Positions 9,545 to 54,940 of a DNA stretch of 64,000 bases are shown piece after piece (positions within the stretch are counted from its first letter, which is position 1; each line of letters starts with the position of its first letter). A model generated the notes under the pieces. That model searched no databases and was not told the origin of the DNA. It saw only the letters and a list, made by a program, of their open reading frames with translations. Made by a program: the position numbers and the translations under genes. This DNA is from an uncultured Flavobacteriales bacterium. Its GTDB lineage: Bacteria > Bacteroidota > Bacteroidia > Flavobacteriales_G > Salibacteraceae. The DNA is taken from assembly GCA_943788725.1 (NCBI GenBank), contig CALSRJ010000001.1:866861-930860 (forward strand), written 5' to 3'.

Positions 9545-9660
9545 CCTTGATAATAGGGCTCTATCCCTAAATTTCTATTCGAAGACTCATGATGAATGGG
9601 AAGAGGTCCAAATCGAACTATAGTTCTGAACTAGAGTGACCCTGGTTCACCTCTTCCTTT
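9545..9660 (-). ncRNA. Candidate IS110 bridge RNA region
   Basis: The non-coding stretch 5' of the transposase is strongly structured. A perfect 9-base stem (9599-9607 with 9649-9657, GGAAGAGGT/ACCTCTTCC) closes a 41-base internal region that contains the palindrome GAACTATAGTTC (9615-9626) and GAAC/GTTC arms (9628-9648). A second hairpin, TAGGG-CTCTAT-CCCTA, is at 9554-9569. IS110-group elements encode their bridge RNA at this place with stem-loops that hold target- and donor-binding loops. The exact 5' and 3' ends are unknown. Confidence 0.5.
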
Positions 9661-14588: not shown

Positions 14589-15323
14589 CTAGAACTTCCA
14601 AGTAGATAAATCTAACCCAAATTGAGACTCGAGAGCAGATACCATTGGTTGATAATGCGAATGCAATTCGTAGAGCAATCCTTCAGGCAAATCTGAATTT
14701 TCTTGAGATGCGTTTATCTTCTTCAAAGGCGCAACTATAGGTTCAAGACCCAGTCGATTCAAAAAATCGCTACGATATTCAGGTTGGGGGGGGTAAGGAA
14801 TTTTTTCAAATACAAGCACGATTAGATCATCCTTAAATCTCTCCGAAAAAGGAACGAGCAAGCTCAGGTAATTGCTGCGAATGAGGTAATTAAATGGGTT
14901 GACTGACACGCATGACGGAGACTCCGGGATATTCAGATTTCTAAGGAACACTTCTTCGATATTTCTCGTTTCTAATCCATTCGCCTTGCTAAACCTGTAG
15001 TTACTAATTGCTCTGTCTACAGGGTCTCTCAATATGGCTATCACCTTCGCATTTGGCAGCAATCGCCATATACGATCTGCCACATGAGGATTCTCATAGT
15101 AGCTAGTCGATTTCTCTAACCAATACCTGGCTTCATGATTAGCACCTTGAAAAAACAATCTTCGATACTCTTCCAAATTAATCTGCTCCCTCAAAAAGTA
15201 TTTCGGCTCTGGGTTATTTGGCTGCGCTTCCGATATCTGGCTACTACTAGCAAGCCAATCTCTCAGCATTGTAGAGCCTGAGCGTTGTGCTCCAATTATA
15301 AAGAGATGTTCTGGACTAATCAA
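14589..15323 (-). CDS. Sulfotransferase (PAPS-dependent)
   Basis: 244 residues. The 5'-phosphosulfate loop GAQRSGST is at residues 11-18 and the 3'-phosphate motif ILRDPVDRAISNYR at about 98-111, the two PAPS-binding signatures of the P-loop sulfotransferase family. It transfers sulfate from PAPS to a hydroxyl, here presumably of the polysaccharide. The start is a TTG at 15323 that overlaps the end of the GT2 gene by 8 bases; no ATG precedes the P-loop. One of six sulfotransferase-like domains in the window. Confidence 0.85.
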   Translation of the reverse strand: MISPEHLFIIGAQRSGSTMLRDWLASSSQISEAQPNNPEPKYFLREQINLEEYRRLFFQGANHEARYWLEKSTSYYENPHVADRIWRLLPNAKVIAILRDPVDRAISNYRFSKANGLETRNIEEVFLRNLNIPESPSCVSVNPFNYLIRSNYLSLLVPFSERFKDDLIVLVFEKIPYPPQPEYRSDFLNRLGLEPIVAPLKKINASQENSDLPEGLLYELHSHYQPMVSALESQFGLDLSTWKF

Positions 15324-17277: not shown

Positions 17278-17939
17278 ACTTTAGATACCGCTATAACCAA
17301 ATCAAAAACAGCCTCTTTCCTCCGCGGAATAATGGATTAAAGTGGGTTTTCATATATGGCCTGCCGAGGTCAGGAACCACTTACTATTATCATCAATGGA
17401 TGAATATCTCCAAAGTCGGCATCTCTGATTATGATTTAAGGTGTTTTCTTCCAGTCTTTGACCACTTTCAGTCCGCAAATTACATTCCTTTTGATACAGC
17501 CGCCTTAAAAACACATATTCTTGACCAACTCATCAATACAGGAGCCCCTGGGGGTGGTAGCTCATTTGATTTTGTTGTCAAGCAAGTACATACTGGTCTT
17601 TCAGAATTTGAATTACTGTGCGAAATCCTCGGAAGCAAGCCAAGCATAACCTTCTTTTTGTATCGTGAGCCCATAGGTTGGTATCATTCGGCATCAAGAA
17701 AATTCAATACCACTGCAGAGGATGCTTATAATATGTACAGTGAGAGTCTTAATTCTTATGATCTCATTGGAGGCGAAATCCTCGAATACGGTCTAGATAT
17801 CACGGCCAGCCTTCAAAAGCACGGTATCTCGCTGAATGAAACGTTTGATCCGAAATCCTCGGATTACCTACCGCTTCCAGAAAAATTAGAAGTATTGAAT
17901 GACCTGTATCAAAAATTCCAGCGAAACCATCGTCAATAA
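17274..17939 (+). CDS. Sulfotransferase-like P-loop protein
   Basis: 221 residues. WVFIYGLPRSGTTYYYHQW contains the PAPS-type P-loop GLPRSGTT at residues 29-36; FFLYREPIGWYHSASRKF around 128-145 is the 3'-phosphate-binding counterpart (RxP...S). It is shorter than classic sulfotransferases. It is coupled to the deacetylase by an ATGA overlap, suggesting deacetylation followed by sulfation of one sugar. It overlaps the convergent sulfotransferase by 7 bases. Substrate unknown. Confidence 0.75.
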   Translation: MNFRYRYNQIKNSLFPPRNNGLKWVFIYGLPRSGTTYYYHQWMNISKVGISDYDLRCFLPVFDHFQSANYIPFDTAALKTHILDQLINTGAPGGGSSFDFVVKQVHTGLSEFELLCEILGSKPSITFFLYREPIGWYHSASRKFNTTAEDAYNMYSESLNSYDLIGGEILEYGLDITASLQKHGISLNETFDPKSSDYLPLPEKLEVLNDLYQKFQRNHRQ

Positions 17940-18808
17940 ACTACAGGTCGATTTGACCTAGCTCTTCGGAGTTTTATCGCCACATTGAATATTGTGTGGG
18001 CCACTTTTGACATTGGAGAAATTGGAGGCCTAAAGAGCATCTCATTCAAGTGAATAATGAATCGTGGCGTTTTGGAGATATAAGCATGTGTACGATCCAA
18101 ATGGAGCGTTCTTTCTCTGCTCGATGCTTCAGGAGAAAATGGCCGTTCAATGTACAGTGGCTCCAAATCTATTCCGATGAGCCTAGACAGGTACTTTCGA
18201 GCTTCATCTGGATGGAGCGTCACTAAGTGTTCGTATCTCACTTCATGATATTCGTGGGTTCTTTTGAAACTGGAGATGACATCCATATAGTCGAAACAAA
18301 TGAGCGTCGCCGCTAAATATGGTATCACTCTAAGTCCGTAAATTTCCTTGACCCTTTTTCCTATCAATGGAATCCAACGTGCTTGAACCATGGAGTGGAT
18401 GATTGCTCCTTCTTCACGCACGACGACAACAAATCTGGGTTTTTCAAAATCTACATGAATTTTTGGATAGAACAATGTGTGGATCGGACTCTTTTCAATA
18501 AAAACAGCCTCCTTATGCTCTGAACGGTTCAAGAGATGATCCGCAGCTCTTTTAAGCAAGTTGCTAAATGAACTGGCTCCATCCGCTAGCCATTGGCGCT
18601 CTTCTTCATCAGGGAGTAATTTGACAAAATATGGATGTGCCATTGCCGCCTTGGAAGAATATGCCCTAGCAGCATCCAATGCAAACGCTTGAGATTCGGC
18701 ATCTGCTCCAATAACCCTCGGCTGATTTACCATGAACATCCTCATAAGAAGACTTGTGCCCGATCGCGGGGGTCCCAAGATTATAACATAAGGGCTAGGG
18801 TATATCAT
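17933..18808 (-). CDS. Sulfotransferase family protein
   Basis: 291 residues. VIILGPPRSGTSLLMRMF carries the P-loop GPPRSGTS (residues 12-19); PRFVVVVREEGAIIHSM is the 3'-phosphate segment, where the usual Asp/Pro after the Arg is replaced by Glu-Glu. VFIEKSPIHTLF is also family-like. First of three genes joined by 4-base overlaps (17933-21050). Predicted to sulfate the glycan. The altered motif makes the activity less certain than for 14589 and 30509. Confidence 0.75.
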   Translation of the reverse strand: MIYPSPYVIILGPPRSGTSLLMRMFMVNQPRVIGADAESQAFALDAARAYSSKAAMAHPYFVKLLPDEEERQWLADGASSFSNLLKRAADHLLNRSEHKEAVFIEKSPIHTLFYPKIHVDFEKPRFVVVVREEGAIIHSMVQARWIPLIGKRVKEIYGLRVIPYLAATLICFDYMDVISSFKRTHEYHEVRYEHLVTLHPDEARKYLSRLIGIDLEPLYIERPFSPEASSRERTLHLDRTHAYISKTPRFIIHLNEMLFRPPISPMSKVAHTIFNVAIKLRRARSNRPVVY

Positions 18809-29722: not shown

Positions 29723-30400
29723 TCACGCTGAGAAGAAGTTCTCCCAAGGAACGAACAAAAACTCTGAATAACTGCTTGGATCTCTCAGGTTTATTTCTAA
29801 AAATCTATCCTGCTCCCTCTTAAAATACTGGCGAACAGATTGATTATGTAGGTTATATGAAGCTTTCAAAATCGTTTCATTATAAAGGTCATCATCAGGC
29901 GTTCCAAACATTAATTTAGTCGCATCATATGCATATCCTTTATTCACATAATTCGCCTCTCTCAGTTGACCAGCATTTGGCACGCCATTTCCTTTATTGT
30001 AGAAATTAGAATGAAAACGACAAATACTATTATACCAATCCTCATCACTGTCACGAACAGTCAGAACAAACTTGCTATTAGGAAAAACCTGGTCCAAATA
30101 CACATATAAATAAGGGAGACTAAAAGGAATATCTTGAAAAGCCTCGGCAGTTCTGCAATAATTTCTAATTCTGAAATATTCTCTTGCTCGATATGAATAA
30201 AGTAATCTCTCAGCTGTCCTTTGATTTCCTACTACATAACCTAAATCAACAAGTGATCTTTGCACAGAGGTGGTTCCAGTTTTGTTGAATCCAATACAGA
30301 AGACCTTTGGTTCACTTTTGCTCAGCACACGAAGTCGATGTCTCAGGTTTCTCCCCAAGTTTACGATTCTTTTACCCTTGTTCTTCAATCTGAAAGTCAC
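29723..30400 (-). CDS. Sulfotransferase family protein
   Basis: 225 residues from a GTG at 30400. VFCIGFNKTGTTSVQRSLVD carries the P-loop in the NKTGTT form (residues 36-44) of bacterial sulfotransferase-like proteins, and KFVLTVRDSDEDWYNSI is the 3'-phosphate segment. The basic N-terminus (RLKNKGKRIVNLGR) may contact the membrane. A gap of 108 bases with no clear signal separates it from the sulfotransferase upstream. Predicted glycan sulfation. Confidence 0.75.
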   Translation of the reverse strand: MTFRLKNKGKRIVNLGRNLRHRLRVLSKSEPKVFCIGFNKTGTTSVQRSLVDLGYVVGNQRTAERLLYSYRAREYFRIRNYCRTAEAFQDIPFSLPYLYVYLDQVFPNSKFVLTVRDSDEDWYNSICRFHSNFYNKGNGVPNAGQLREANYVNKGYAYDATKLMFGTPDDDLYNETILKASYNLHNQSVRQYFKREQDRFLEINLRDPSSYSEFLFVPWENFFSA

Positions 30401-30508: not shown

Positions 30509-31363
30509 TCACCAATCAGGATTCCAACCAATCAACTCGCTAAGTCTGCTATTGTGCTTAAAGTATATATCTCGCAAGAACTCACGATCGTCAACGCTAA
30601 TATTCGTCTTATATCCACCACTATTAATTTTGACGAATTCTAAATCCCCCTTTCCAAATGGCTCCAAATCAAGAAAGGCACAAGTACGATTTAAAATCAT
30701 TTCGAAGTCCCTCGCAAGGTCTTCAAAATCAACAATTACAAAATTTTTGTCACTGAAATAATTCAAGTATTTTTCAAGTTGTTCGGCATAAAAGCCCCTC
30801 CGGATAATTGACGGTTCTTGAATCTCAGTACCAATAATTTTCAACTCAATTTCCAAACACTCTCTAAACGAAGGGAAACTTAGACGATTTTTAAACAAAA
30901 ATGTGAAAAGACCATTCTCAACTCCAGGGCTCAAGCCTTTTTCAAGCCTCGACACTAGCCCTTTTTCATAAAATTGCCTATACATATTCCATGCTGAATA
31001 GGCCCTATCCACGGGGTTTCGCAATACTACTATAAATTTCAATTTTGGATTATAGCGCATCAACCTGAATGCTACCTGGTCATAGTATAGGTAAGATGGG
31101 CTAGACTCAAAAAACAACCTTGACTTCCAAAAAAAACTTTTAAAGTGCGCCTCATAATCGTTAATTCCAACTCCGTAATTGATCTCTTGGTCAAAATAAT
31201 GCAACTCCTTCGGTGAAGACCCAATCAATTTTGGATGCTTATCGAGATAATAATGCAACGCCGAAGTGCCAGCCTTCTGCGCACCAATAATCATGAAAGA
31301 AGGCGCATTTCCTGGTAGGAAATAATCCATTTTTTGACTCAGCCTTCTTTTAACGTGTTTCAC
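30509..31363 (-). CDS. Sulfotransferase (Sulfotransfer_1 type)
   Basis: 284 residues. The P-loop IIGAQKAGTSALHYYL is at about 25-40 and the 3'-phosphate motif FIVVLRNPVDRAYSAWNMY at about 109-127, both canonical. FFESSPSYLYY and the C-terminal GGYKTNISVDDREFLRDIY fit heparan-sulfate-type and bacterial glycan sulfotransferases. It overlaps the end of the flippase gene by 14 bases. The best-supported PAPS enzyme of the set. Confidence 0.88.
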   Translation of the reverse strand: MKHVKRRLSQKMDYFLPGNAPSFMIIGAQKAGTSALHYYLDKHPKLIGSSPKELHYFDQEINYGVGINDYEAHFKSFFWKSRLFFESSPSYLYYDQVAFRLMRYNPKLKFIVVLRNPVDRAYSAWNMYRQFYEKGLVSRLEKGLSPGVENGLFTFLFKNRLSFPSFRECLEIELKIIGTEIQEPSIIRRGFYAEQLEKYLNYFSDKNFVIVDFEDLARDFEMILNRTCAFLDLEPFGKGDLEFVKINSGGYKTNISVDDREFLRDIYFKHNSRLSELIGWNPDW

Positions 31364-32810
31364 CTTTGCTCACTTTTATGTGTAAAAGACTTGCTAATTG
31401 CTTGAATTCATAGATTACAGGTGACGAAATCATTCGAAGTAGTGCCGCATACGAAACCACATAAACAAGCACTCTTAGTATCCACGAAACAAAGCTCATT
31501 TCCGTCAAGAAAGTATTAAGCAATAATATGATTGCACTCGAAAAAAAGGCATATGTAATTAATGGCAACACCTGTTTTTTGAAAGAGACTTTAAGAATCC
31601 TATGAGTGAGATAGGAGTTTAACACCCCAAATAATTACTGATACCAAAACACTCACTTTGAGGAATTCTAAAAGACCAAAGAAGTATGCAAAGGCAAAAG
31701 GTATAAAAGATAGAACCTTTCTAAGGTTCCCAATATGAAAATTTTCCCTTGAACACCCTCTTGCTAAAAAGGCATTCACTACCAATGACCCTAATGGAAA
31801 AGAAAACGCCTTGAGTATTAGTATCGAAAACAAAGGGATAGACTCTACCCATTGAATACCAAATAGAAATACTATCAGCTTATCAGCGGTGAGGAAGAAA
31901 AATCCCATTAAAAAAAATCGCGATACTAGAAACAACATCCGTCAGTTTAAGAAAAACACTGTTAAACCTCAAAATATCATCCTTAATATTGACCATGGCG
32001 GGGAAAAAAAACTTTTCCGAGGCTTGTTGAAGTGTTCTGGGTAATTAGATTATTCAATCCAAGAGCTCTATTGTAAAAGCCAAGAGTGTTTGCAGAAAAG
32101 AGTCTTCCAATAATCAAAGAGTCTAATTGGGCAATTAATTTATTCAGGGATGTCGCAGTGAACACATAAAATGAAAAACGAAACAATCTTCTTATTTCGT
32201 CAAATGAAAACTCAACTTTCGGCCTCCAACTTACCAGACTCCATACTAAGATGGCCGCAACAATCGACGAAAAAACATGCTGGAATACAAGGGCGTAAAC
32301 CCCAAAGCCAAAATAGGCCAAAATGACAGCCATAAGACCTCCAGACACTTGAGCAGCCAAACTTCTAACTGATAATAATTTAAAATTGAGCTCCTTACTC
32401 AAGATTGCTATATGAACAACAGTTAAACTACTAAATATCAATGATAAAGATAACCATCTTAGCAGGCTCACTACTTCTTCAGTGTGGTAAAAGCGCGCTA
32501 TCAAAGGAGATCCTACAAATAGAATTATTGAAAGTAAGACCGCACTTGTGATGTTCAGAAAGAATACTGAAGAGTAAGTTAAATCTGAGTTATCATCACT
32601 TTGAATAAGAGCTGATGATAGCCCCATTTGAATGAATACATGCCCTACTGAAATGAATACCAATGCCATCGCGACAGAACCAAAATCACTAGGAGTTAAC
32701 ATTCTCGCCAGAAAAATTGATAGAATCAATCTCACAATTTGACCGCCAAAATTCCCTAGCAGGTCCCACAGAAAAGCGATTGAAGATTTTGAACGAAGTT
32801 CACCGCTCAT
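31350..32810 (-). pseudogene. wzx: Wzx-type polysaccharide flippase, three homopolymer frameshifts
   Basis: The first 275 codons (MSGELRSKSSIAFLWDLLGN, then ARMLTPSDFGSVAMALVF) are a PST/MATE-type flippase N-terminus. Two more pieces, LTADKLIVFLFGIQWVESI and SYLTHRILKVSFKKQVLPL, complete a protein of about 485 residues with 12-14 helices. The frames break at an A8 run at 32004-32011, an A8 run at 31910-31917 and a C4 run at 31625-31628; removing one base from each restores one frame with sensible sequence. It moves lipid-linked repeat units across the inner membrane. Sequencing error, or slippage-prone tracts that switch the gene. Confidence 0.8.
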
Positions 32811-32825
32811 ATTTATCGAAATTGT

Positions 32826-35204
32826 CTATTCCCCATGTTCAGAATAGCTTCCATATCCTGATTTACCGTAACTGTACCTACCTCCGTAACCATAGCCACC
32901 GTAGCCATATTGGGCATAATAATAGTCGAGACGAGAAATCTGCTCTTCATTGAGTACTAAGGCTGCCCCATTTACACTATTCGTTGACAACAATTTATCT
33001 ATATAGTCGAGAGATGTTTTAGATGTCGAGCGCGAATTCAACACAAACAAATTCACATCTGAAATCTTCGTCAACATTAATGCGTCCGAAATCAAAGAAA
33101 CAGGGGGCGTGTCCAAGAATACATATTCGTAGTGCTCCCGTGCATAATCTATAATATCCCCGAGTTTCTCTCGCATAATCAATTCCGATGCGTTTGGAGG
33201 AATCGGACCAGAAGTAATAACATCCAAGGTTTGAACTTCCGTTTTTTGCACTACATCTTCTATTCGCTCGTTGTCTATCAATAATGAACTAATGCCTTTC
33301 TCATTTGGCAATTCCATTGCCTTTGCCAATCTTGGTTTATGAAGGTCGAAGTCCATGATAAGCACCCTACGCTCAGCAATTGCAAGCACCGATGCTAAGT
33401 TCACACTAGTGAATGTCTTTCCTTCTCCTGGTAAAAGCGATGTTACTAAGATCACATTACTCTTAGCGTCAGTTACTAAAAATTGAAGATTTGTACGCAA
33501 TGCCCTGAACGTTTGAGATATTTCAGAACGTTCACTTCCGCTTTTTAGGCGAAACGTACTATCCAATTCTTTCAATTTTGGAATACTTCCTAGGATTGTA
33601 ATGCTCGTCATAGACTGCAGCTGTCCCAAACTTTTGATACGCAGGAAGAAAATTTCTTTGATTAATAAGAGTAAAATGGCAAGACCCAATCCTATCACAG
33701 CCCCAATCAAATTCATCTTCAGCTTATTCGGATACACAACACCTACAGCCCTCGACTGCTCGATAATCTTTGTTTCAGGCACAAAACCAGCCCTTGCAAT
33801 GACTGTCTCCGCTCTTCTGGACAAAAGAAACGAGTACAATTCCTCATTTACAGCTAACCTCCGCTCAATATTTAAAATCTGTCTCTGAGTTTTAGGAATA
33901 TTTTTTATCCTTCCCTCCATAGCTGAAATTTTGTCATCCAAATCAGCAATCGCCTCTAGCACAGCAGTTTTTTGTGAATCAATGTATCGGATAAGATCAA
34001 CTTTCATTCCCTGAATTCTCTCGAGTAAAGACAAGGCCTTTGGGCTTTGAGACGTATTACTATTCATCAATTGACCATACTGTCCTCGCGTCTCATATAA
34101 AGCCTTTACTTGACGAACCAATTCAGGATCAGTATTCGCGACAAACAGGTTGGGGGGCAGTAGACTCTCCAAGTCCTCTTCCTTTAGGAGGTAAGTCGTA
34201 AGATCTTCTAATGCGTCAACTTGATCCTGAAACTGTCTACTTTGAACATCCATTTGAATTAAACGGTTAAAATATGTCTCCTCCTCTCTTGATAAATTCA
34301 AAATGGAAGCATCTTGCTTATATTGCTCTAACTCATTCTCGATCTCATTGATAATCCCAGTGACCTCATTAAGTTGAATGTCTATATAACTAAGCGTATT
34401 TTCATTCACCTGACGCTTATTCTCCAAAGTGCTGATGATGTAAATATTTGCAAGTGAATCAAGAACTTCCACTGCCCGCTCGGGAATCTCATCTCTCAGC
34501 GTTACTTCAATAATGCTAGTGTAGTCTAAACTCGAAACGCTCAGCGCAGACTGATATTTCTGAATAAGTTTTGACTTTCTGAGAACGGCAAATTGGTAAT
34601 TGATCTGGGAAAGTGATGGAAGAGATATCGTTGTGAGGTTAGGCTCCTTGTTTATACGCAAGAACAAGCCATGATCCAGAATAAGCTCACCAAACCTGTA
34701 CTTTTTAGACTTCACCTCGTCTTTGTAATTGTAGCTAAGTTGATAATATATCGTATCAATGATGGTTAAATCAAAAACAAGACCTGAAAAGGAACTAGTC
34801 CGTTGATCAGTCTGAACTTTGAAAGGCATGTGCTTATATATTTCAGTGACCTTCAAACGACCAACAATAAAATATGACACATCAAGAGGTAACTTATCAA
34901 GAACCTTTTCGATCAATCCACTCGATTTAATCACACGCATTTGACTTGCCGTCTCTTCATAGGAAGCATAGCGTGAGTTGAAGCCCAAGCCTTTGTACAT
35001 CTCGCTTTGATAATTGTATGTTTCGTTCGACTTAAGTAGGATTTGACATTTTGCAGCATGAATATCAGGCTGCCGATGTGTATATAAGTACGTTATCGCG
35101 AAGGACAGCGAAGGCAACAAAACCAACCAATACCAATTCGAAAAAATAATTGAAATCAGGCGAACTACGTCCTTTCTAGATAGTATCTCGGAGGATTGTG
35201 ACAC
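32826..35204 (-). CDS. wzc: Wzc-type polysaccharide co-polymerase and tyrosine autokinase
   Basis: 792 residues from a GTG at 35204. A Wzz domain with a first membrane helix at about 22-41, a long periplasmic region with coiled coils (about 265-480) and a second helix at about 505-525. The BY-kinase domain has Walker A LLPGEGKTF (about 590-598), Walker A' LIMDFDLHKPRL (about 615-626) and Walker B YVFLDTPP (about 694-701). The tail contains eleven tyrosines in its last 35 residues, the autophosphorylation cluster. It controls chain length and export with Wzx/Wzy. No Wza-like export gene is in the window. Confidence 0.93.
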   Translation of the reverse strand: MSQSSEILSRKDVVRLISIIFSNWYWLVLLPSLSFAITYLYTHRQPDIHAAKCQILLKSNETYNYQSEMYKGLGFNSRYASYEETASQMRVIKSSGLIEKVLDKLPLDVSYFIVGRLKVTEIYKHMPFKVQTDQRTSSFSGLVFDLTIIDTIYYQLSYNYKDEVKSKKYRFGELILDHGLFLRINKEPNLTTISLPSLSQINYQFAVLRKSKLIQKYQSALSVSSLDYTSIIEVTLRDEIPERAVEVLDSLANIYIISTLENKRQVNENTLSYIDIQLNEVTGIINEIENELEQYKQDASILNLSREEETYFNRLIQMDVQSRQFQDQVDALEDLTTYLLKEEDLESLLPPNLFVANTDPELVRQVKALYETRGQYGQLMNSNTSQSPKALSLLERIQGMKVDLIRYIDSQKTAVLEAIADLDDKISAMEGRIKNIPKTQRQILNIERRLAVNEELYSFLLSRRAETVIARAGFVPETKIIEQSRAVGVVYPNKLKMNLIGAVIGLGLAILLLLIKEIFFLRIKSLGQLQSMTSITILGSIPKLKELDSTFRLKSGSERSEISQTFRALRTNLQFLVTDAKSNVILVTSLLPGEGKTFTSVNLASVLAIAERRVLIMDFDLHKPRLAKAMELPNEKGISSLLIDNERIEDVVQKTEVQTLDVITSGPIPPNASELIMREKLGDIIDYAREHYEYVFLDTPPVSLISDALMLTKISDVNLFVLNSRSTSKTSLDYIDKLLSTNSVNGAALVLNEEQISRLDYYYAQYGYGGYGYGGRYSYGKSGYGSYSEHGE

Positions 35205-49153: not shown

Positions 49154-49221
49154 TCAACGCCTGTCTGCGCATCGAATAATATGCCTCCCCAGCCCTCTAG
49201 TAGCCTAGTTTCGCAGTGGCG

Positions 49222-50208
49222 ATGAAAGGCGTATACATAAACGGGCGGTTTAGTCTGCAACAGATGTCTGGCGTTCAGCGGTACGGACGTGGGATCCTTG
49301 CCCATCTTCCTGTTGAAGGGTACACGCAACTCACGCCGAAAGGGAACGGAAGGCTCGCTGGGATAGCTTGGGAACAATTCACCCTTCCTCGCCAATTGAA
49401 GGCACAAGAAAGCCCGCTCTTGCTGAACTTTTGCAATACGGCGCCCGTCACTTACCCAAATCAAATCGTTACCATCCATGACCTTGCGGCCATGGAACAC
49501 CCCGAGTGGTTCAGCCCTGCATTTGGTCGTTATTACCAATGGCTTATGCCCCGCATTGCAAGCAAGGCAATGCACGTCGTGACGGTCTCAGAATGGTCCA
49601 AACAGAAGTTGATCGAACGGTTCCGTATAAGTGATCAAAAGATAACGGTCATCCCCGCCGCAATTGAAGAAACCTTGGTTCAGGCAAAGGCTGAACCCGT
49701 GCCAGGACTATCCAAGGGGTTCTTGCTTATGGTGGGCAGCGCAGATCCCCGTAAGCAGTTCGCATTGGCGGCGCGCACTTTGCTTCCTGAAGTCAAAAAA
49801 TTGGGATTGCAAATCGTCATCGCCGGCGGGACAGAAACAAATTTCACATCAGAGCCCTTTCCAGCAGACGAGCACATTGTCCTGGTGAAAGCCCCTTCGG
49901 ATGGACAACTCGCTTGGCTTTATCGCAATGCCGAGTTGGTTGTGCACCCATCGCTGTATGAAGGCTTCAGTTTGGTGCCCCACGAGGCGCTGGCTTTTGG
50001 AACTCGAATAGTGGTATCAGATATCCCCGTGCACAGAGATATGCTTGGGGAGAACGCTATCTACCTCGATCCCAAGGAAATGATTGCCTTACCGGAAGCG
50101 ATAAAGCACAGCCTTTCCCTCGCGAAGCCATTGGCACCCGACCCAGCGTCCTTGGGCTACGCATCCTCAGCAGCTAGCTGGGTCAGCTTGGTTCGCTCCG
50201 TCCAATAA
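49222..50208 (+). CDS. Family 4 glycosyltransferase
   Basis: 328 residues from the ATG at 49222. VYINGRFSLQQMSGVQRYGR is the GT4 start (GRFxxxxxSGVQRY), with HDLAAMEHPEWFSPAF and VVTVSEWSKQKLIERF. The donor domain has LMVGSADPRKQFALA and the EX7E segment YEGFSLVPHEALAFGTRIV. First gene of the second small polysaccharide locus; the next GT4 gene follows 26 bases later. Confidence 0.86.
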   Translation: MKGVYINGRFSLQQMSGVQRYGRGILAHLPVEGYTQLTPKGNGRLAGIAWEQFTLPRQLKAQESPLLLNFCNTAPVTYPNQIVTIHDLAAMEHPEWFSPAFGRYYQWLMPRIASKAMHVVTVSEWSKQKLIERFRISDQKITVIPAAIEETLVQAKAEPVPGLSKGFLLMVGSADPRKQFALAARTLLPEVKKLGLQIVIAGGTETNFTSEPFPADEHIVLVKAPSDGQLAWLYRNAELVVHPSLYEGFSLVPHEALAFGTRIVVSDIPVHRDMLGENAIYLDPKEMIALPEAIKHSLSLAKPLAPDPASLGYASSAASWVSLVRSVQ

Positions 50209-50234: not shown

Positions 50235-51353
50235 ATGAAGGTCGCTTTCGTTCACGATTGGTTCACGATTCCGGCAGGTGCTGAAAAGGTCGCCCGCGAG
50301 ATCATTGACGTGATTCAACCTTCGCGCATCTTCGCCCTGTTCAACTTCATGGATTTTGGATCGCTCCAACACATCACCCAGGGCAGAGGGGTACGCACCT
50401 CGTTTCTGCAAAATGTACCTGGAGCTGAGGAGCATTATCGACACCTCGCCCCGCTTTACCCGCGTGCGATTTCAAGACTGGATGTATCTGCTGAAGATGT
50501 GATCATCTCTTCTTCGTGGATGGCTGCCAAAGGGGTCCAAAAACGTAAGGGACAAATTCATATTTCCTACTGTCATACGCCCATGCGCTTTGCTTGGGGA
50601 TTGGAAGAAACCTACTTAAAGAAGTATGGCTACAATGCGGGAGTCAAACGACTGCTGGCAAAAGTGATGATCCGACGCCTCAAGAAATGGGACAGTAAAA
50701 CAGCCCTCGAGGTGGATCATTTCATCGCCAATTCCCATTTCGTTGCAGAGCGCATACAGCAGGCCTATGGACGAAAAAGTACGGTGATTTATCCTCCGGT
50801 AGATACCGAGCGTTTCAAGATCCATGAAAAAAAGAAGGAATATTACTTCACGGCCGCCCGTTTCGTCGACTACAAAAACCTTGACTTGATCATCCAAGCG
50901 TTCAATAAGCTTCCGGGACAAAAGCTGCTGATTGCGGGTCGCGGCCCAATGGAAAAGCACTTGCGAAAAATGGCTGGACCCAACATCGATTTCTTGGGTT
51001 GGGTAAGCGACGAACAACTCGTGTACTACATGCAGCGAGCAAAGGCCTTCGTGAATGCGTCCATCGAAGACTTCGGCATAGCCGGGCTTGAAGCGCAATC
51101 GTGCGGCACTCCTGTCATCGCTTTGGGCAAAGGCGGGTATACCGAAACGGTCATCGAGCACGAAACGGGCATCTTTTTTCACCGGGAACACCCAGAGGCG
51201 CTAGCGGATGCCATATTGCGTTCAGAACGGATGACCTTCGACCCCTACACAGTGCGCAGGAATGCCCAACGTTTCGACCGAGAGGTGTTCCGAGAAAAAT
51301 TTCTGAATTTCTTCCTCGACAAATGCTTTGACCATGCGCACACCATGGCTTGA
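50235..51353 (+). CDS. Family 4 glycosyltransferase (WbaZ-like mannosyltransferase)
   Basis: 372 residues. MKVAFVHDWFTIPAGAEKV, ISSSWMAAKGVQKRKGQIHI, SYCHTPMRFAWGLEETYL and IYPPVDTERFKI are the WbaZ-type signatures; the donor domain has YYFTAARFVDYKNLDLII, and NASIEDFGIAGLEAQSCGTP holds the EX7E pair. Mannose is the usual sugar in that group but is not proven here. Its end overlaps the ligase start by 20 bases. Confidence 0.85.
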   Translation: MKVAFVHDWFTIPAGAEKVAREIIDVIQPSRIFALFNFMDFGSLQHITQGRGVRTSFLQNVPGAEEHYRHLAPLYPRAISRLDVSAEDVIISSSWMAAKGVQKRKGQIHISYCHTPMRFAWGLEETYLKKYGYNAGVKRLLAKVMIRRLKKWDSKTALEVDHFIANSHFVAERIQQAYGRKSTVIYPPVDTERFKIHEKKKEYYFTAARFVDYKNLDLIIQAFNKLPGQKLLIAGRGPMEKHLRKMAGPNIDFLGWVSDEQLVYYMQRAKAFVNASIEDFGIAGLEAQSCGTPVIALGKGGYTETVIEHETGIFFHREHPEALADAILRSERMTFDPYTVRRNAQRFDREVFREKFLNFFLDKCFDHAHTMA

Positions 51354-52524
51354 TCGCACAGAGCAATTTCTGATTTTTGTCTTAGCTGGGTTTCTCTTTT
51401 GGCCCCATGCCGTCTCGTCCATAGCGCTCATCCTCTTGGTCGGCCTGCGCATACTCCGATCTGGCAAGGAGACCGTACCTCAAGGAAAGGATTGGCTGCT
51501 CTTCCTCCCCGCAGTGGTCATCTTCATTGCTTGGGGGATCCATGGTGCATCGCCGAATGGACAAGCAGAGCTGCAACTTTGGGCGACCTTCCTCGGCGCG
51601 GCCCTGTACTTCAAGACTTCGCCCTTCAGAAAGACCTTCGTCCAAAGTTTTGCGCTGATGTCACTGATCCAAGCTGCCATAGTCCTTGGGGCCATTGTCT
51701 TTGGAGAAGCAGCAAGCGGTGGCTCCTTTTCACAACACGTCCGCGATCAGATCGATCAACTCTTCCACGTCCACCCCACCTACCTCAGCGCCGTTTGGCT
51801 TTGGGCAGGTACGTGGTTGATTTTAGAAGAAGGTTGGCCCATACGGTACCGCCAAGCAAGCTTGGCCGGATTGGCGATCATGGCCGGGATCACGGGAGGT
51901 AAAATGCCCTTTCTGGCCTTCGCTATAGTCCTTGTATATATCATCCTAACCACCGTTCAGCGCACACGTCATCGCATCATCGTTTCCAGCATCTTGATTG
52001 TATTCATGAGCATCAACGTGCTGCTCAACCCTGGACTTCGCGATCGATTTGCAGAACTCATCGGTCCGACCACCGAATATTCAGAGGGACAATGGTTGAC
52101 CTCCACAGAATTGCGCTTGGGCATCTGGAGGTGTGTAAAGCAAGTGGGCCTTGACCATTGGCAGATTGGCTTAGGTACTGGAAATACAAGGCCTGCCTTG
52201 GAGAAATGCTTCGAAGGCTACGATCAGGCCCAGTTCTTCGAAACCGAGTTCAACAGCCACAATCAATACATGCACTTCTGGTTGGTGGGAGGAATCCTCG
52301 GCTTCCTTTCCATCCTCGGGTGGTTCGCATGGCTGCTCTATGTAGCCATCCAACGCCGCGACAAGGAGTTCATCGCCGCATTGATCTATATGTGCTTGTT
52401 GCTGCTGACCGAAAACTACTTCAGTCGCCAAGCGGGCATGATGCTGATCGCTTTTACGCTGACGGCGCGGTATTTCCGTCCACGAGTAGATGCGCGCTCT
52501 TCGCCCAGCAATCCCGCCACGTAA
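51334..52524 (+). CDS. O-antigen ligase/polymerase family membrane protein
   Basis: 396 residues from the ATG at 51334, about ten membrane helices. ITGGKMPFLAFAIVL is in the place of the SRTA motif, a periplasmic loop with IGPTTEYSEGQWLTSTELRL follows, and NSHNQYMHFWLVGGILG is the HNxYL motif of Wzy_C (PF04932). It would polymerise or ligate the glycan made by the neighbouring transferases. Its last 71 bases overlap the end of the convergent fusion gene. Confidence 0.8.
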   Translation: MRTPWLDRTEQFLIFVLAGFLFWPHAVSSIALILLVGLRILRSGKETVPQGKDWLLFLPAVVIFIAWGIHGASPNGQAELQLWATFLGAALYFKTSPFRKTFVQSFALMSLIQAAIVLGAIVFGEAASGGSFSQHVRDQIDQLFHVHPTYLSAVWLWAGTWLILEEGWPIRYRQASLAGLAIMAGITGGKMPFLAFAIVLVYIILTTVQRTRHRIIVSSILIVFMSINVLLNPGLRDRFAELIGPTTEYSEGQWLTSTELRLGIWRCVKQVGLDHWQIGLGTGNTRPALEKCFEGYDQAQFFETEFNSHNQYMHFWLVGGILGFLSILGWFAWLLYVAIQRRDKEFIAALIYMCLLLLTENYFSRQAGMMLIAFTLTARYFRPRVDARSSPSNPAT

Positions 52525-54352
52525 ACTTCCAGGTTTGTTGCATGCAGCGACCTTCGGCTTCGGCTCGATTTGTCTGAGTCAATTGACCTAATCCTTCCGT
52601 GATGGACGCTTTGCTTTCCGGGTCGCAAAGAATGCCAACCTCGCCTACCAACTCCGGCAAAGAAGCACGGTCGGATACCAATACAGGACAACCGCAAGCC
52701 ATGGCTTCGAGCACCGGAAGTCCAAATCCTTCGTACAAACTCACATAGCAGAATCCATGTGCAAGGGTGTACAATGCGGGCAGGTGCTCTTCCCTCACAA
52801 AGCCCGTGAAGTGAATTTGACCCGCGCAGTCCTTCGGAATGTTCAACTTTGATCGCCAGCCTTTGCGTCCCGCCAATACCAAGGGAAATCGCTGTCTCGT
52901 TGTTGGATCCAGAGCGGCATAGGCATCGATCAGGCCTTGGATGTTTTTGCGAGGTTCGATGGTAGAGACACTCAGTAAAAAAGGACCTTCTGGAAGCCCA
53001 TAGCGCTTGCGAACAAGTGCCTTCAAGTGCGCATTGTGGATGGGGAAAAAGACGCGACGATCGACGCCTTCTGGAATGTGCGCAGCATATGCACCCTCTT
53101 TCAACATGTCGCGCTGCGTAGACTCCGAGACCGCGATGTATGTTCCTTTGTTTTCTCTAATCCACTGCATTCCTTCCTCGGCACGGTGGATGTTGTTGGC
53201 TTCGTGGAATTGAGGAAACTGGCTATGCGTAAGGTCATGGACAGTAGCCACCAGTTTTACAAACCGTGCAGATTGCAGGAAAAGGTAGTGCTGTGGAAGG
53301 GTGAGCCACGCCACATCGTAGCTGTCGTTTGAGACGATTGTCTCATTAAACTTGGGCATCCTCGAAACGGGGGCTACCCTGGCTAACCACTGGTAGGTTC
53401 TATCTGGAAGCGCCAAGCGGAGGACATTTTTGAGGACTTGAAATGCGCCTTTTCTATTTCCAGTATCCATCGCCACGTGCTTCAATGCCTCCTCGCTTCC
53501 AACGATGCGGTTTTCGATCATCACATCCATGTCCACCCTTGGATCCGGGTAGCGTTCCGACGCTTTCAGCACTTCGCGCACATACCGACCGATACCATCG
53601 ATGAAGGGGTCGTTCAATTTGCTGCCTTCCATCAAGACCTTGGTGACTGATGCACGTTTTAGATCAGGAAGTGCATTGATCGCTCCATTCGCCTGGTATC
53701 CGACCCACTCCATGGTCTCTCCGTGCAAGTGCCAAAAAAGCCTTGCCATTTCCTCAGACAATTCTTCGCGCCAGCCGCCTACCACACCCTTTCTAAACCA
53801 ATGCTGCGCAAGGGCTCCGTCGTGGCTATATTTTCCGCTTCCGTATTCGGGCGTGCCTTGTTTTAGTCCCTTGAAATCAGGCAATCTCGCAAGGTCTGGT
53901 GCTGGCAACGGCATCACACGGCTTATCTTTTCACATGCGGCAATTGGGTCTTTGATCAGGTCTTCGAATCGAATGACAACGGCGGCCTTGGGCAGCCATG
54001 CTTCGACGTGGGCACTCCAACCTCCAAAATGACTTCCCTCTGCGGCGTACACGGCCTCTTTTAGATTTTGATTGAAGTCGCTTTCGGGCGCGACCACATC
54101 CTTGCGGTGGTGGGCGAAGGAAACTACGGCATCCCTTCCATCGCGGATGAGGTAAACGATGGGGCGATCCAATAATGCTGTCGGAAGGTTATCCGGAAGG
54201 TGGTGGGTTTTCACCACCTGGGAGTTACTCCAATCCTCATCTGGTCCATGGCCATCGGTCAAGTAGGTTTTGGACGATACGCCATAGACCTCAAACAAGA
54301 CATTCCTTAAAAAGGTATTGCCGCTTCTTGGATAGGATACGAGTGTAATCAT
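52454..54352 (-). CDS. Sulfotransferase-glycosyltransferase (GT4) fusion protein
   Basis: 632 residues from the ATG at 54352 (MITLVSYPRSGNTFLRN); the open frame to 54526 adds an unlikely extension. Residues 1-230 are a sulfotransferase: P-loop SYPRSGNTF (6-14), VVKTHHLPDN, the 3'-phosphate motif LIRDGRDAVVSFAHH (68-82), and RKGVVGGWREELS. From about 238 a full GT4 enzyme begins (VLMEGSKLNDPFIDGIGRYV), with VSTIEPRKNIQGLIDAY and YEGFGLPVLEAMACGCPVLV (EX7E). No start codon is seen at the junction. Both activities on one chain suggest coupled addition and sulfation of a sugar. Confidence 0.85.
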   Translation of the reverse strand: MITLVSYPRSGNTFLRNVLFEVYGVSSKTYLTDGHGPDEDWSNSQVVKTHHLPDNLPTALLDRPIVYLIRDGRDAVVSFAHHRKDVVAPESDFNQNLKEAVYAAEGSHFGGWSAHVEAWLPKAAVVIRFEDLIKDPIAACEKISRVMPLPAPDLARLPDFKGLKQGTPEYGSGKYSHDGALAQHWFRKGVVGGWREELSEEMARLFWHLHGETMEWVGYQANGAINALPDLKRASVTKVLMEGSKLNDPFIDGIGRYVREVLKASERYPDPRVDMDVMIENRIVGSEEALKHVAMDTGNRKGAFQVLKNVLRLALPDRTYQWLARVAPVSRMPKFNETIVSNDSYDVAWLTLPQHYLFLQSARFVKLVATVHDLTHSQFPQFHEANNIHRAEEGMQWIRENKGTYIAVSESTQRDMLKEGAYAAHIPEGVDRRVFFPIHNAHLKALVRKRYGLPEGPFLLSVSTIEPRKNIQGLIDAYAALDPTTRQRFPLVLAGRKGWRSKLNIPKDCAGQIHFTGFVREEHLPALYTLAHGFCYVSLYEGFGLPVLEAMACGCPVLVSDRASLPELVGEVGILCDPESKASITEGLGQLTQTNRAEAEGRCMQQTWKFTWRDCWAKSAHLLVDGNTAPSA

Positions 54353-54451: not shown

Positions 54452-54940
54452 ATGAGCACTTGGAAGATTGCGCGTTCGTTCATTTTGCCTGTGATCGTAT
54501 TGATCCTCGTCCCATGGGCGATTCACACATGGTTGGAGCCACTGTCTTTCATGAATGGCTATACCACCTTCACAGGACTCTTGTTCCTCCTTGCGGGAAT
54601 GACGATGCTGGCGTGGACGAACGTTCTCTTCGTAGTATACGGCGATGGAACCCTGGCACCATGGGACAAGACCAAGAAACTTGGCGTACTAGGTCCGTAC
54701 CGTTACGTGCGCAATCCGATGATCCTTGGAGTAGTCACAACGCTCTTGGGCGAGACGTTGGTCTTCGGCTCGTTCTACCTTTTCGCCTGGTCAATCACCT
54801 TTTGGTTGATCAACCATCTGTATCTATCCCTGCATGAAGAACACGAGTTGACAAATCGGTTTGGAGAAGCCTACACGAGGTACAAAGCAATTGTACCCCG
54901 TTGGCTTCCTTTATCCAGTCCTGTAGAGTTCGATCCTTGA
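54452..54940 (+). CDS. Isoprenylcysteine carboxyl methyltransferase-like membrane protein
   Basis: 162 residues, four hydrophobic segments. LGVLGPYRYVRNPMILGVV and EEHELTNRFGEAYTRYK are the SAM-binding C-terminal signatures of PEMT/ICMT enzymes. Divergent from the fusion gene; CAGTTTTG upstream is one base off the -7 box. Probably methylates a lipid or small molecule; not obviously part of the glycan pathway. Confidence 0.83.
   Translation: MSTWKIARSFILPVIVLILVPWAIHTWLEPLSFMNGYTTFTGLLFLLAGMTMLAWTNVLFVVYGDGTLAPWDKTKKLGVLGPYRYVRNPMILGVVTTLLGETLVFGSFYLFAWSITFWLINHLYLSLHEEHELTNRFGEAYTRYKAIVPRWLPLSSPVEFDP

Follow-up and report, generated by a model that had tools for sequence, protein, structure and literature searches.

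A sulfotransferase–GT4 glycosyltransferase fusion conserved in Bacteroidota, a candidate two-activity enzyme of sulfated surface-glycan synthesis

In the usual view of how sulfated glycans are made, glycosyltransferases act first and separate sulfotransferases follow. One gene of an uncultured Flavobacteriales bacterium (Salibacteraceae; assembly GCA_943788725.1, contig CALSRJ010000001.1, positions 866,861 to 930,860 of the forward strand; this 64,000-nucleotide stretch is the window below) raises the question of whether a single protein may perform both steps. Its product joins a sulfotransferase domain to a GT4 glycosyltransferase domain. Our reading, to which we give a probability of about 0.6, is of a two-activity enzyme that would extend a growing surface glycan by a sugar and sulfate either this sugar or its neighbour.

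The frame is uninterrupted on the minus strand from an ATG at 54352 to a stop at 52454–52456 (ORF listing of the window). A sequence-only reading had described one continuous frame of 632 residues, naming no strand, with a PAPS-type sulfotransferase domain followed by a GT4 domain, and both points were borne out. Pfam analysis of the whole protein placed Sulfotransfer_1 (PF00685) at residues 44–214 (8.4e-18; 65.1 bits against a curated cut-off of 22) and Glycos_transf_1 (PF00534) at residues 449–594 (2.2e-27; 96.1 bits against 26.4). No TM-like segment was found in the fusion protein. A longer version beginning with a GTG at 54526 is unlikely, because the position equivalent to 54352 is a start codon (ATG, TTG or GTG) in 14/14 homologs examined; several of these also have stops shortly upstream of it. 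The same reading had held the join to be free of start codons, which needs correcting: codons 240–241 (53630–53635), where the GT4 domain forms its first strand, read TTG-ATG in frame. Since the ATG recurs in so few of the 16 fusions (Table 1), internal initiation at this site is not conserved, and a separate GT4 protein initiated there was rejected.

The N-terminal half is a predicted PAPS-dependent sulfotransferase of PF00685. Alignment with the SULT-type structure 1aqu, together with a table of 25 key residues across 16 fusions, located the phosphosulfate loop, K/H stretch, R...S segment and RKG in the window protein, all four being present. We take SYPRSGNTF, like its 1aqu counterpart, to be the 5'-phosphosulfate loop and the histidine of the KTH stretch to be catalytic; the R70...S78 segment presumably binds the 3'-phosphate. 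An alignment that mixed in paralogs from the window misaligned the sulfotransferases and was left out of the results. The genome itself carries three adjacent genes, for an APS kinase (cysC), a PAPS_reduct-family protein that its context identifies as CysD, and a CysN-like GTPase, indicating that PAPS can be made. It also holds eight PF00685 matches. Within the family, an APS kinase was present in 12/13 carriers of the fusion versus 14/22 non-carriers, a weakly informative difference.

The motifs of the GT4 half are likewise intact in the window protein. These include R468 and K469 in the donor half and E541 and E549, which we take for the EX7E motif that marks retaining GT4 enzymes. Among NCBIfam models, TIGR04047 (MSMEG_0565 glycosyltransferase) came out best, at 118.1 bits, below its cut-off of 259.85; the GT4 half therefore fits no named subfamily. 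An AlphaFold model built from two sequences (the window protein and its relative L028) reached a mean pLDDT of 34.7 and a pTM of 0.27 and was discarded.

Table 1. Features of the fusion gene and its surroundings, in window coordinates.
Feature	Position	Strand	Evidence or conservation
Fusion gene, sulfotransferase + GT4 glycosyltransferase, 632 aa	52454..54352	minus	open frame and Pfam
Sulfotransferase domain, residues 1–219	53696..54352	minus	PF00685 8.4e-18; profile match to SULT-type structures, 1aqu 5e-16
SYPRSGNTF, aligns with TYPKSGTTW of 1aqu	54311..54337	minus	intact in 15/16 fusions
K48-T-H50, aligns with KTH stretch of 1aqu	54203..54211	minus	15/16 fusions
R70...S78 segment	54119..54145	minus	R70 and S78 both in 15/16 fusions
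R187-K-G189, aligns with RKG of 1aqu	53786..53794	minus	R187 in 16/16 fusions
Linker, residues 220–237	53642..53695	minus	14–39 residues long across 16 fusions; 19% mean pairwise identity, nine homologs
ATG of codon 241, in frame at the join	53630..53632	minus	equivalent ATG in G000, G008 and G010 alone among 16 fusions
GT4 (GT-B) glycosyltransferase domain, residues 238–632	52457..53641	minus	PF00534 2.2e-27, PF13692 9e-24
H372-D373, N-terminal half of GT4	53234..53239	minus	15/16 fusions
R468-K-N470, donor half of GT4	52943..52951	minus	15/16 fusions
E541...E549 (EX7E)	52706..52732	minus	both Glu in 15/16 fusions
O-antigen ligase/polymerase-like membrane protein (Wzy_C)	51328..52524	plus	PF04932 2.2e-12
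GT4 glycosyltransferase, conserved neighbour	50235..51353	plus	Pfam
GT4 glycosyltransferase	49216..50208	plus	Pfam
Wzc-like chain-length/tyrosine kinase	32826..35204	minus	PF02706, PF13807, PF13614
Polysaccharide flippase-like protein (Wzx type)	31983..32810	minus	PF13440 5.1e-73
Free-standing sulfotransferase	30509..31363	minus	PF00685 1.4e-15
Free-standing sulfotransferase	29723..30400	minus	PF17784 9.8e-19
Free-standing sulfotransferase	17933..18808	minus	PF13469 4e-12
Free-standing sulfotransferase, polysaccharide cluster	14589..15323	minus	PF13469 1.6e-15, PF00685 1.2e-9

The same two-domain order was found in 17 genomes, drawn from the genus, from the wider family and from two classes of Bacteroidota, as a single open frame in 16 and frameshifted in one (G004); 17 is the total of named carriers, the genome samples being overlapping. 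The search for the fusion in other Bacteroidota that had been proposed from the sequence was thus answered positively, and this recurrence excludes chance association. It also bears on whether two genes were fused by an assembly or sequencing error, which we regard as vanishingly improbable. Sixteen unbroken homologs from separate genomes of two classes, 17–94% identical to the window protein per domain, reject such an artefact. Nothing in the window favours it, and no indel splitting two genes was seen at the junction there. The frameshift of G004, which falls at nine consecutive T within the GT4 part, is an error or change of the reverse kind.

Among 100 relatives, both halves lay in one frame in 13 genomes and were split over two frames in G004. 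Every genome of the family that matched the sulfotransferase profile (13/35) had the fusion architecture, counting frameshifted G004 and a decayed copy in G024. An even sample of 395 Bacteroidota gave seven matches at 1e-15, three of them fusions (G000, G459 and G296) and four free-standing. Sampling 395 genomes of the window's class gave 18 matches: nine were members of the fusion set, including one frameshifted and one decayed copy, and the other nine were free-standing, in frames of 263–293 aa. G296 was the sole fusion among seven matches in 244 genomes of its own class. PF00685 and PF00534 were both matched in 13/13 fusions of one scan and in G459, G296 and G685, scanned separately.

In a sulfotransferase tree of 46 rows, 40 of them different, the 16 fusions formed one clade with 100/99 support and in 200/200 bootstrap trees; the tree was midpoint-rooted and the G024 row sits on a long branch. 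No free-standing close relative of the fusion sulfotransferase was found in the genomes searched: the nearest matched at 1e-22 or weaker, against 1e-85 or better for those fusions whose domain is intact. The simplest reading is a single origin with later spread across two classes. A contig scan with peptides specific to the window protein matched a single locus, L028, an 89% relative. A viral, phage or plasmid source was rejected, as those three collections contained no fusion: five loci in the viral collection matched the GT4 part only, and none of the 19 phage records and 447 plasmid records that matched spanned 80% of the protein. The sulfotransferase domain alone matched eight plasmid records at 24–30% identity. 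The fusion was not found in G002, G005 and G009 of the genus. The contig of G009 stops 6 bases beyond the neighbouring GT4 gene, that of G005 stops 5 bases beyond a murQ match and the completeness of G002 is 78%, so these absences cannot be called losses.

Gene neighbourhoods point to surface polysaccharide synthesis. In the window the Wzy_C gene and the fusion overlap tail to tail by 71 bases, and this tail-to-tail arrangement recurs in 11/11 carriers of the genus plus G015, its nearest relative. An ortholog of the adjoining GT4 gene (50235–51353) lies beside Wzy_C in 10 of these 11; the eleventh contig ends there. Two carriers, G022 and G024, have a related GT4 gene together with a Wzy_C+GT4 fusion, at a distance of two to five genes on the upstream side. 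Sulfotransfer_2 genes are nearby in 6/6 carriers outside the genus plus G015: one or two stand beside the fusion in G022, G024, G042, G459 and G685, or within ~1 kb of it in G296. ABC-type exporter genes lie near the fusion in G022, G042 and G459. A polysaccharide cluster of the window, at about 14.6–35.2 kb, comprises four further sulfotransferases, a flippase, a Wzc-like protein, an epimerase, an aminotransferase and glycosyltransferases. As to Wzx/Wzy components, Wzy_C adjoins the fusion; the flippase and Wzc, which may serve the same glycan, are ~17–20 kb away in the window. Together, the PAPS genes, the polysaccharide neighbours and the Sulfotransfer_2 genes near the fusion in relatives support well the role in sulfated-glycan synthesis suggested by the sequence-only reading.

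Separately, G004, G006, G010, G012 and G015 encode a multi-TM protein of 500–547 aa directly upstream of the fusion on the same strand. Those of G006, G010 and G015 had no Pfam match.

Comparison of the two closest orthologs, G000 and G008, shows purifying selection on both halves, with dN/dS of 0.079 for the sulfotransferase and 0.168 for the GT4 domain. The linker gave 0.17 over 18 codons, too short to weigh, and in the other pairs compared the synonymous sites of one or both domains had reached or nearly reached saturation. Identities of the two domains correlate across fusions (Spearman 0.66 over 120 pairs, which are non-independent).

Natural variants show that each half can be lost alone. 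G024 lacks K48, H50, S78, other residues and part of the sulfotransferase domain, with its GT4 residues intact; G296 has lost the HD and RK residues as well as the first Glu of EX7E, while its sulfotransferase residues are intact. Such copies are what would be expected if one half were a relic with a structural or regulatory role, leaving the protein in practice with a single activity. We consider this improbable, given the low dN/dS of both halves in G000 against G008 and the residues kept by the window protein and 13 other fusions. These 14 retain all key residues save single changes, namely D71N (G001), K188 to S or R (five fusions) and R256V (G459).

The loss of one active site in G024 and G296 with the fusion kept also indicates that coupling is not obligatory in every lineage. 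Both domains may be active in the same pathway at different residues or steps, the fusion providing co-location and equal amounts without channelling. The flexible linker, variable in length and sequence (Table 1), fits this arrangement, as does the mosaic G011. Its codons ~210 to 520 resemble G007 (77–97% per 60-base block) and its upstream part is mostly nearer G003. The exchanged piece starts at the join and spans the GT4 acceptor half, such that much of the GT4 domain came from a G007-like allele apart from the sulfotransferase. Set against this, the two domains are joined in order in 17/17 carriers, and the fusion sulfotransferase has no close free-standing relative among the genomes searched. 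We judge uncoupled activity to be rather unlikely and retain the two-activity enzyme acting on one glycan as the preferred reading.

Conservation is uneven along the protein. Mean pairwise identity among nine homologs (the genus plus G015) was 63% for the sulfotransferase, 19% for the linker, 40% for the GT4 acceptor half and 58% for the donor half. The boundary between GT4 halves was set by hand for this comparison, and an insertion of variable extent lies in the N half. No comparable drop in the N half was seen in two neighbouring GT4 genes (N versus C halves, 71 versus 70 and 53 versus 41). A conserved sulfotransferase and donor half beside a variable acceptor half is suggestive only, and could reflect a constant sulfated sugar placed on varying acceptors. 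Extending this tentatively, the fusions might form a coupled sulfo-glycosyltransferase family of Bacteroidota, in which GT4 adds a constant sugar that is sulfated at once. The acceptor-reading half would diversify and recombine between lineages, placing one sulfated block on varying surface glycans. We hold this to be possible, with the odds leaning against it.

In the mechanism we propose for the two-activity enzyme, a cytoplasmic, soluble protein would act in surface-glycan assembly. Its C-terminal GT4 domain would take a sugar from a nucleotide-sugar donor and attach it to a growing oligosaccharide, probably a lipid-linked one. The N-terminal domain would then move a sulfuryl group from PAPS to the newly added sugar or its neighbour, ahead of export. 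The neighbouring Wzy_C protein would then polymerise or ligate the exported unit, with ABC exporters serving in some relatives. A single protein molecule would thereby transfer a sugar and sulfate the same sugar or its neighbour. We infer both reactions, the sugar identities, the order of the steps and the use of one glycan for both.

A conserved protein with both activities would give a defined bacterial route to sulfated sugars, and the fusion would serve as a marker for sulfated-polysaccharide loci in Bacteroidota. The natural series of intact, dead-sulfotransferase and dead-GT4 copies is useful for asking whether the steps are coupled. No paper on a sulfotransferase–GT4 fusion was found in searches of an open-access library; the architecture may sit unreported in InterPro or CAZy.

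Compared with known systems, the window protein shares its fold family and its aligned PAPS-binding and catalytic motifs with SULT-type sulfotransferases of PF00685 (PDB 1aqu, 5x2b). Unlike these, its sulfotransferase domain is short (~219 aa) and fused to GT4, and the fusion clade is tight and far from the sampled free-standing relatives. GT-B motifs and donor-half similarity are shared with retaining GT4 enzymes (PF00534; PDB 7qsg and WbaZ-1, 2f9f), whereas the fusion bears an N-terminal sulfotransferase. A deacetylase-sulfotransferase glycan enzyme, as described in an excerpt of its report, is likewise a two-activity protein with a sulfotransferase half, but its partner is a deacetylase rather than a glycosyltransferase (PMC10864358). 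In the synechan xss cluster of Synechocystis, the sulfotransferases XssA and XssE, Wzx/Wzy and glycosyltransferases make a sulfated polysaccharide; in the available portion of that paper the two sulfotransferases and eight glycosyltransferases are separate genes, unlike the fusion (PMC8205485). Capsule clusters of Vibrio sp. KMM 8419 (PMC11641403) and Cobetia marina KMM 1449 (PMC11766843) combine PAPS genes, sulfotransferases and glycosyltransferase genes. The accessible passages of both reports present the sulfotransferases as separate genes and mention no sulfotransferase–glycosyltransferase fusion; in the former, the authors suggest that rhamnose is added already sulfated. Sulfated-polysaccharide clusters of Pontiella, from the excerpted text, also keep sulfotransferase and glycosyltransferase genes apart (PMC7356697). 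Each half of the window protein thus belongs to a known family; the parts are ordinary, and their combination is unusual and conserved.

In the window, the 3' ends of the fusion gene and of the neighbouring, convergently oriented O-antigen ligase/polymerase-like Wzy_C gene share 71 bases, and similar convergent overlaps were found again in most relatives. In three relatives, the gene immediately preceding the fusion, in the same orientation, encodes a multi-TM protein of 500–547 aa without Pfam match (Table), and similar ORFs are also present in genomes G004 and G012. The window lacks such a protein. The flippase-like ORF of the window is short (275 aa), covering positions 2–239 of 293 in PF13440, and a 112-aa ORF lies directly downstream on the same strand. 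This flippase may be a split gene.

In G004, the fusion was read in two frames that part at a run of nine Ts. A sequencing error, a broken gene and a phase-variable switch are listed as the three options. Comparison with loci L059 and L062 showed a mosaic structure for the G011 fusion gene: sequence 5' of about codon 210 is mostly like the G003 allele, and codons ~210–520 are like the G007 allele. One breakpoint coincides with the domain join of the fusion.

Complementary decay was seen in two carriers, G024 and G296, in which opposite halves are degenerate. Two relatives combine Wzy_C and GT4 domains in a single protein. The G003 phosphodiesterase-TPR-sulfotransferase protein is a second unusual sulfotransferase fusion, to which locus L074 of G007 appears similar; sulfotransferase matches also lie in frames of 883–969 aa, with one stop read through, in G005, G009 and G015.

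Table. Coordinates of features in the window and in relatives' genomes (each locus in its own coordinates).
Feature	Genome	Locus	Position	Remark
Fusion/Wzy_C overlap	window		52454–52524	
Flippase-like ORF region	window		31600–32810	
Upstream multi-TM protein	G006	L061	6779–8278	
Upstream multi-TM protein	G010	L064	10376–13527	
Upstream multi-TM protein	G015	L067	7135–8676	
T run	G004	L060	around 9550–9570	
Mosaic fusion	G011	L065	8853–10742	
Wzy_C O-antigen ligase + GT4	G022	L068	6216–8483	756 aa; near sulfotransferase-GT4 fusion
Wzy_C O-antigen ligase + GT4	G024	L069	5482–7728	749 aa; near sulfotransferase-GT4 fusion
Type I phosphodiesterase + TPR repeats + C-terminal sulfotransferase	G003	L075	1256–3937	894 aa
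Fusion	G024	L069	8468–10447	sulfotransferase degenerate, fusion retained
Fusion	G296	L072	7655–9793	GT4 degenerate, fusion retained
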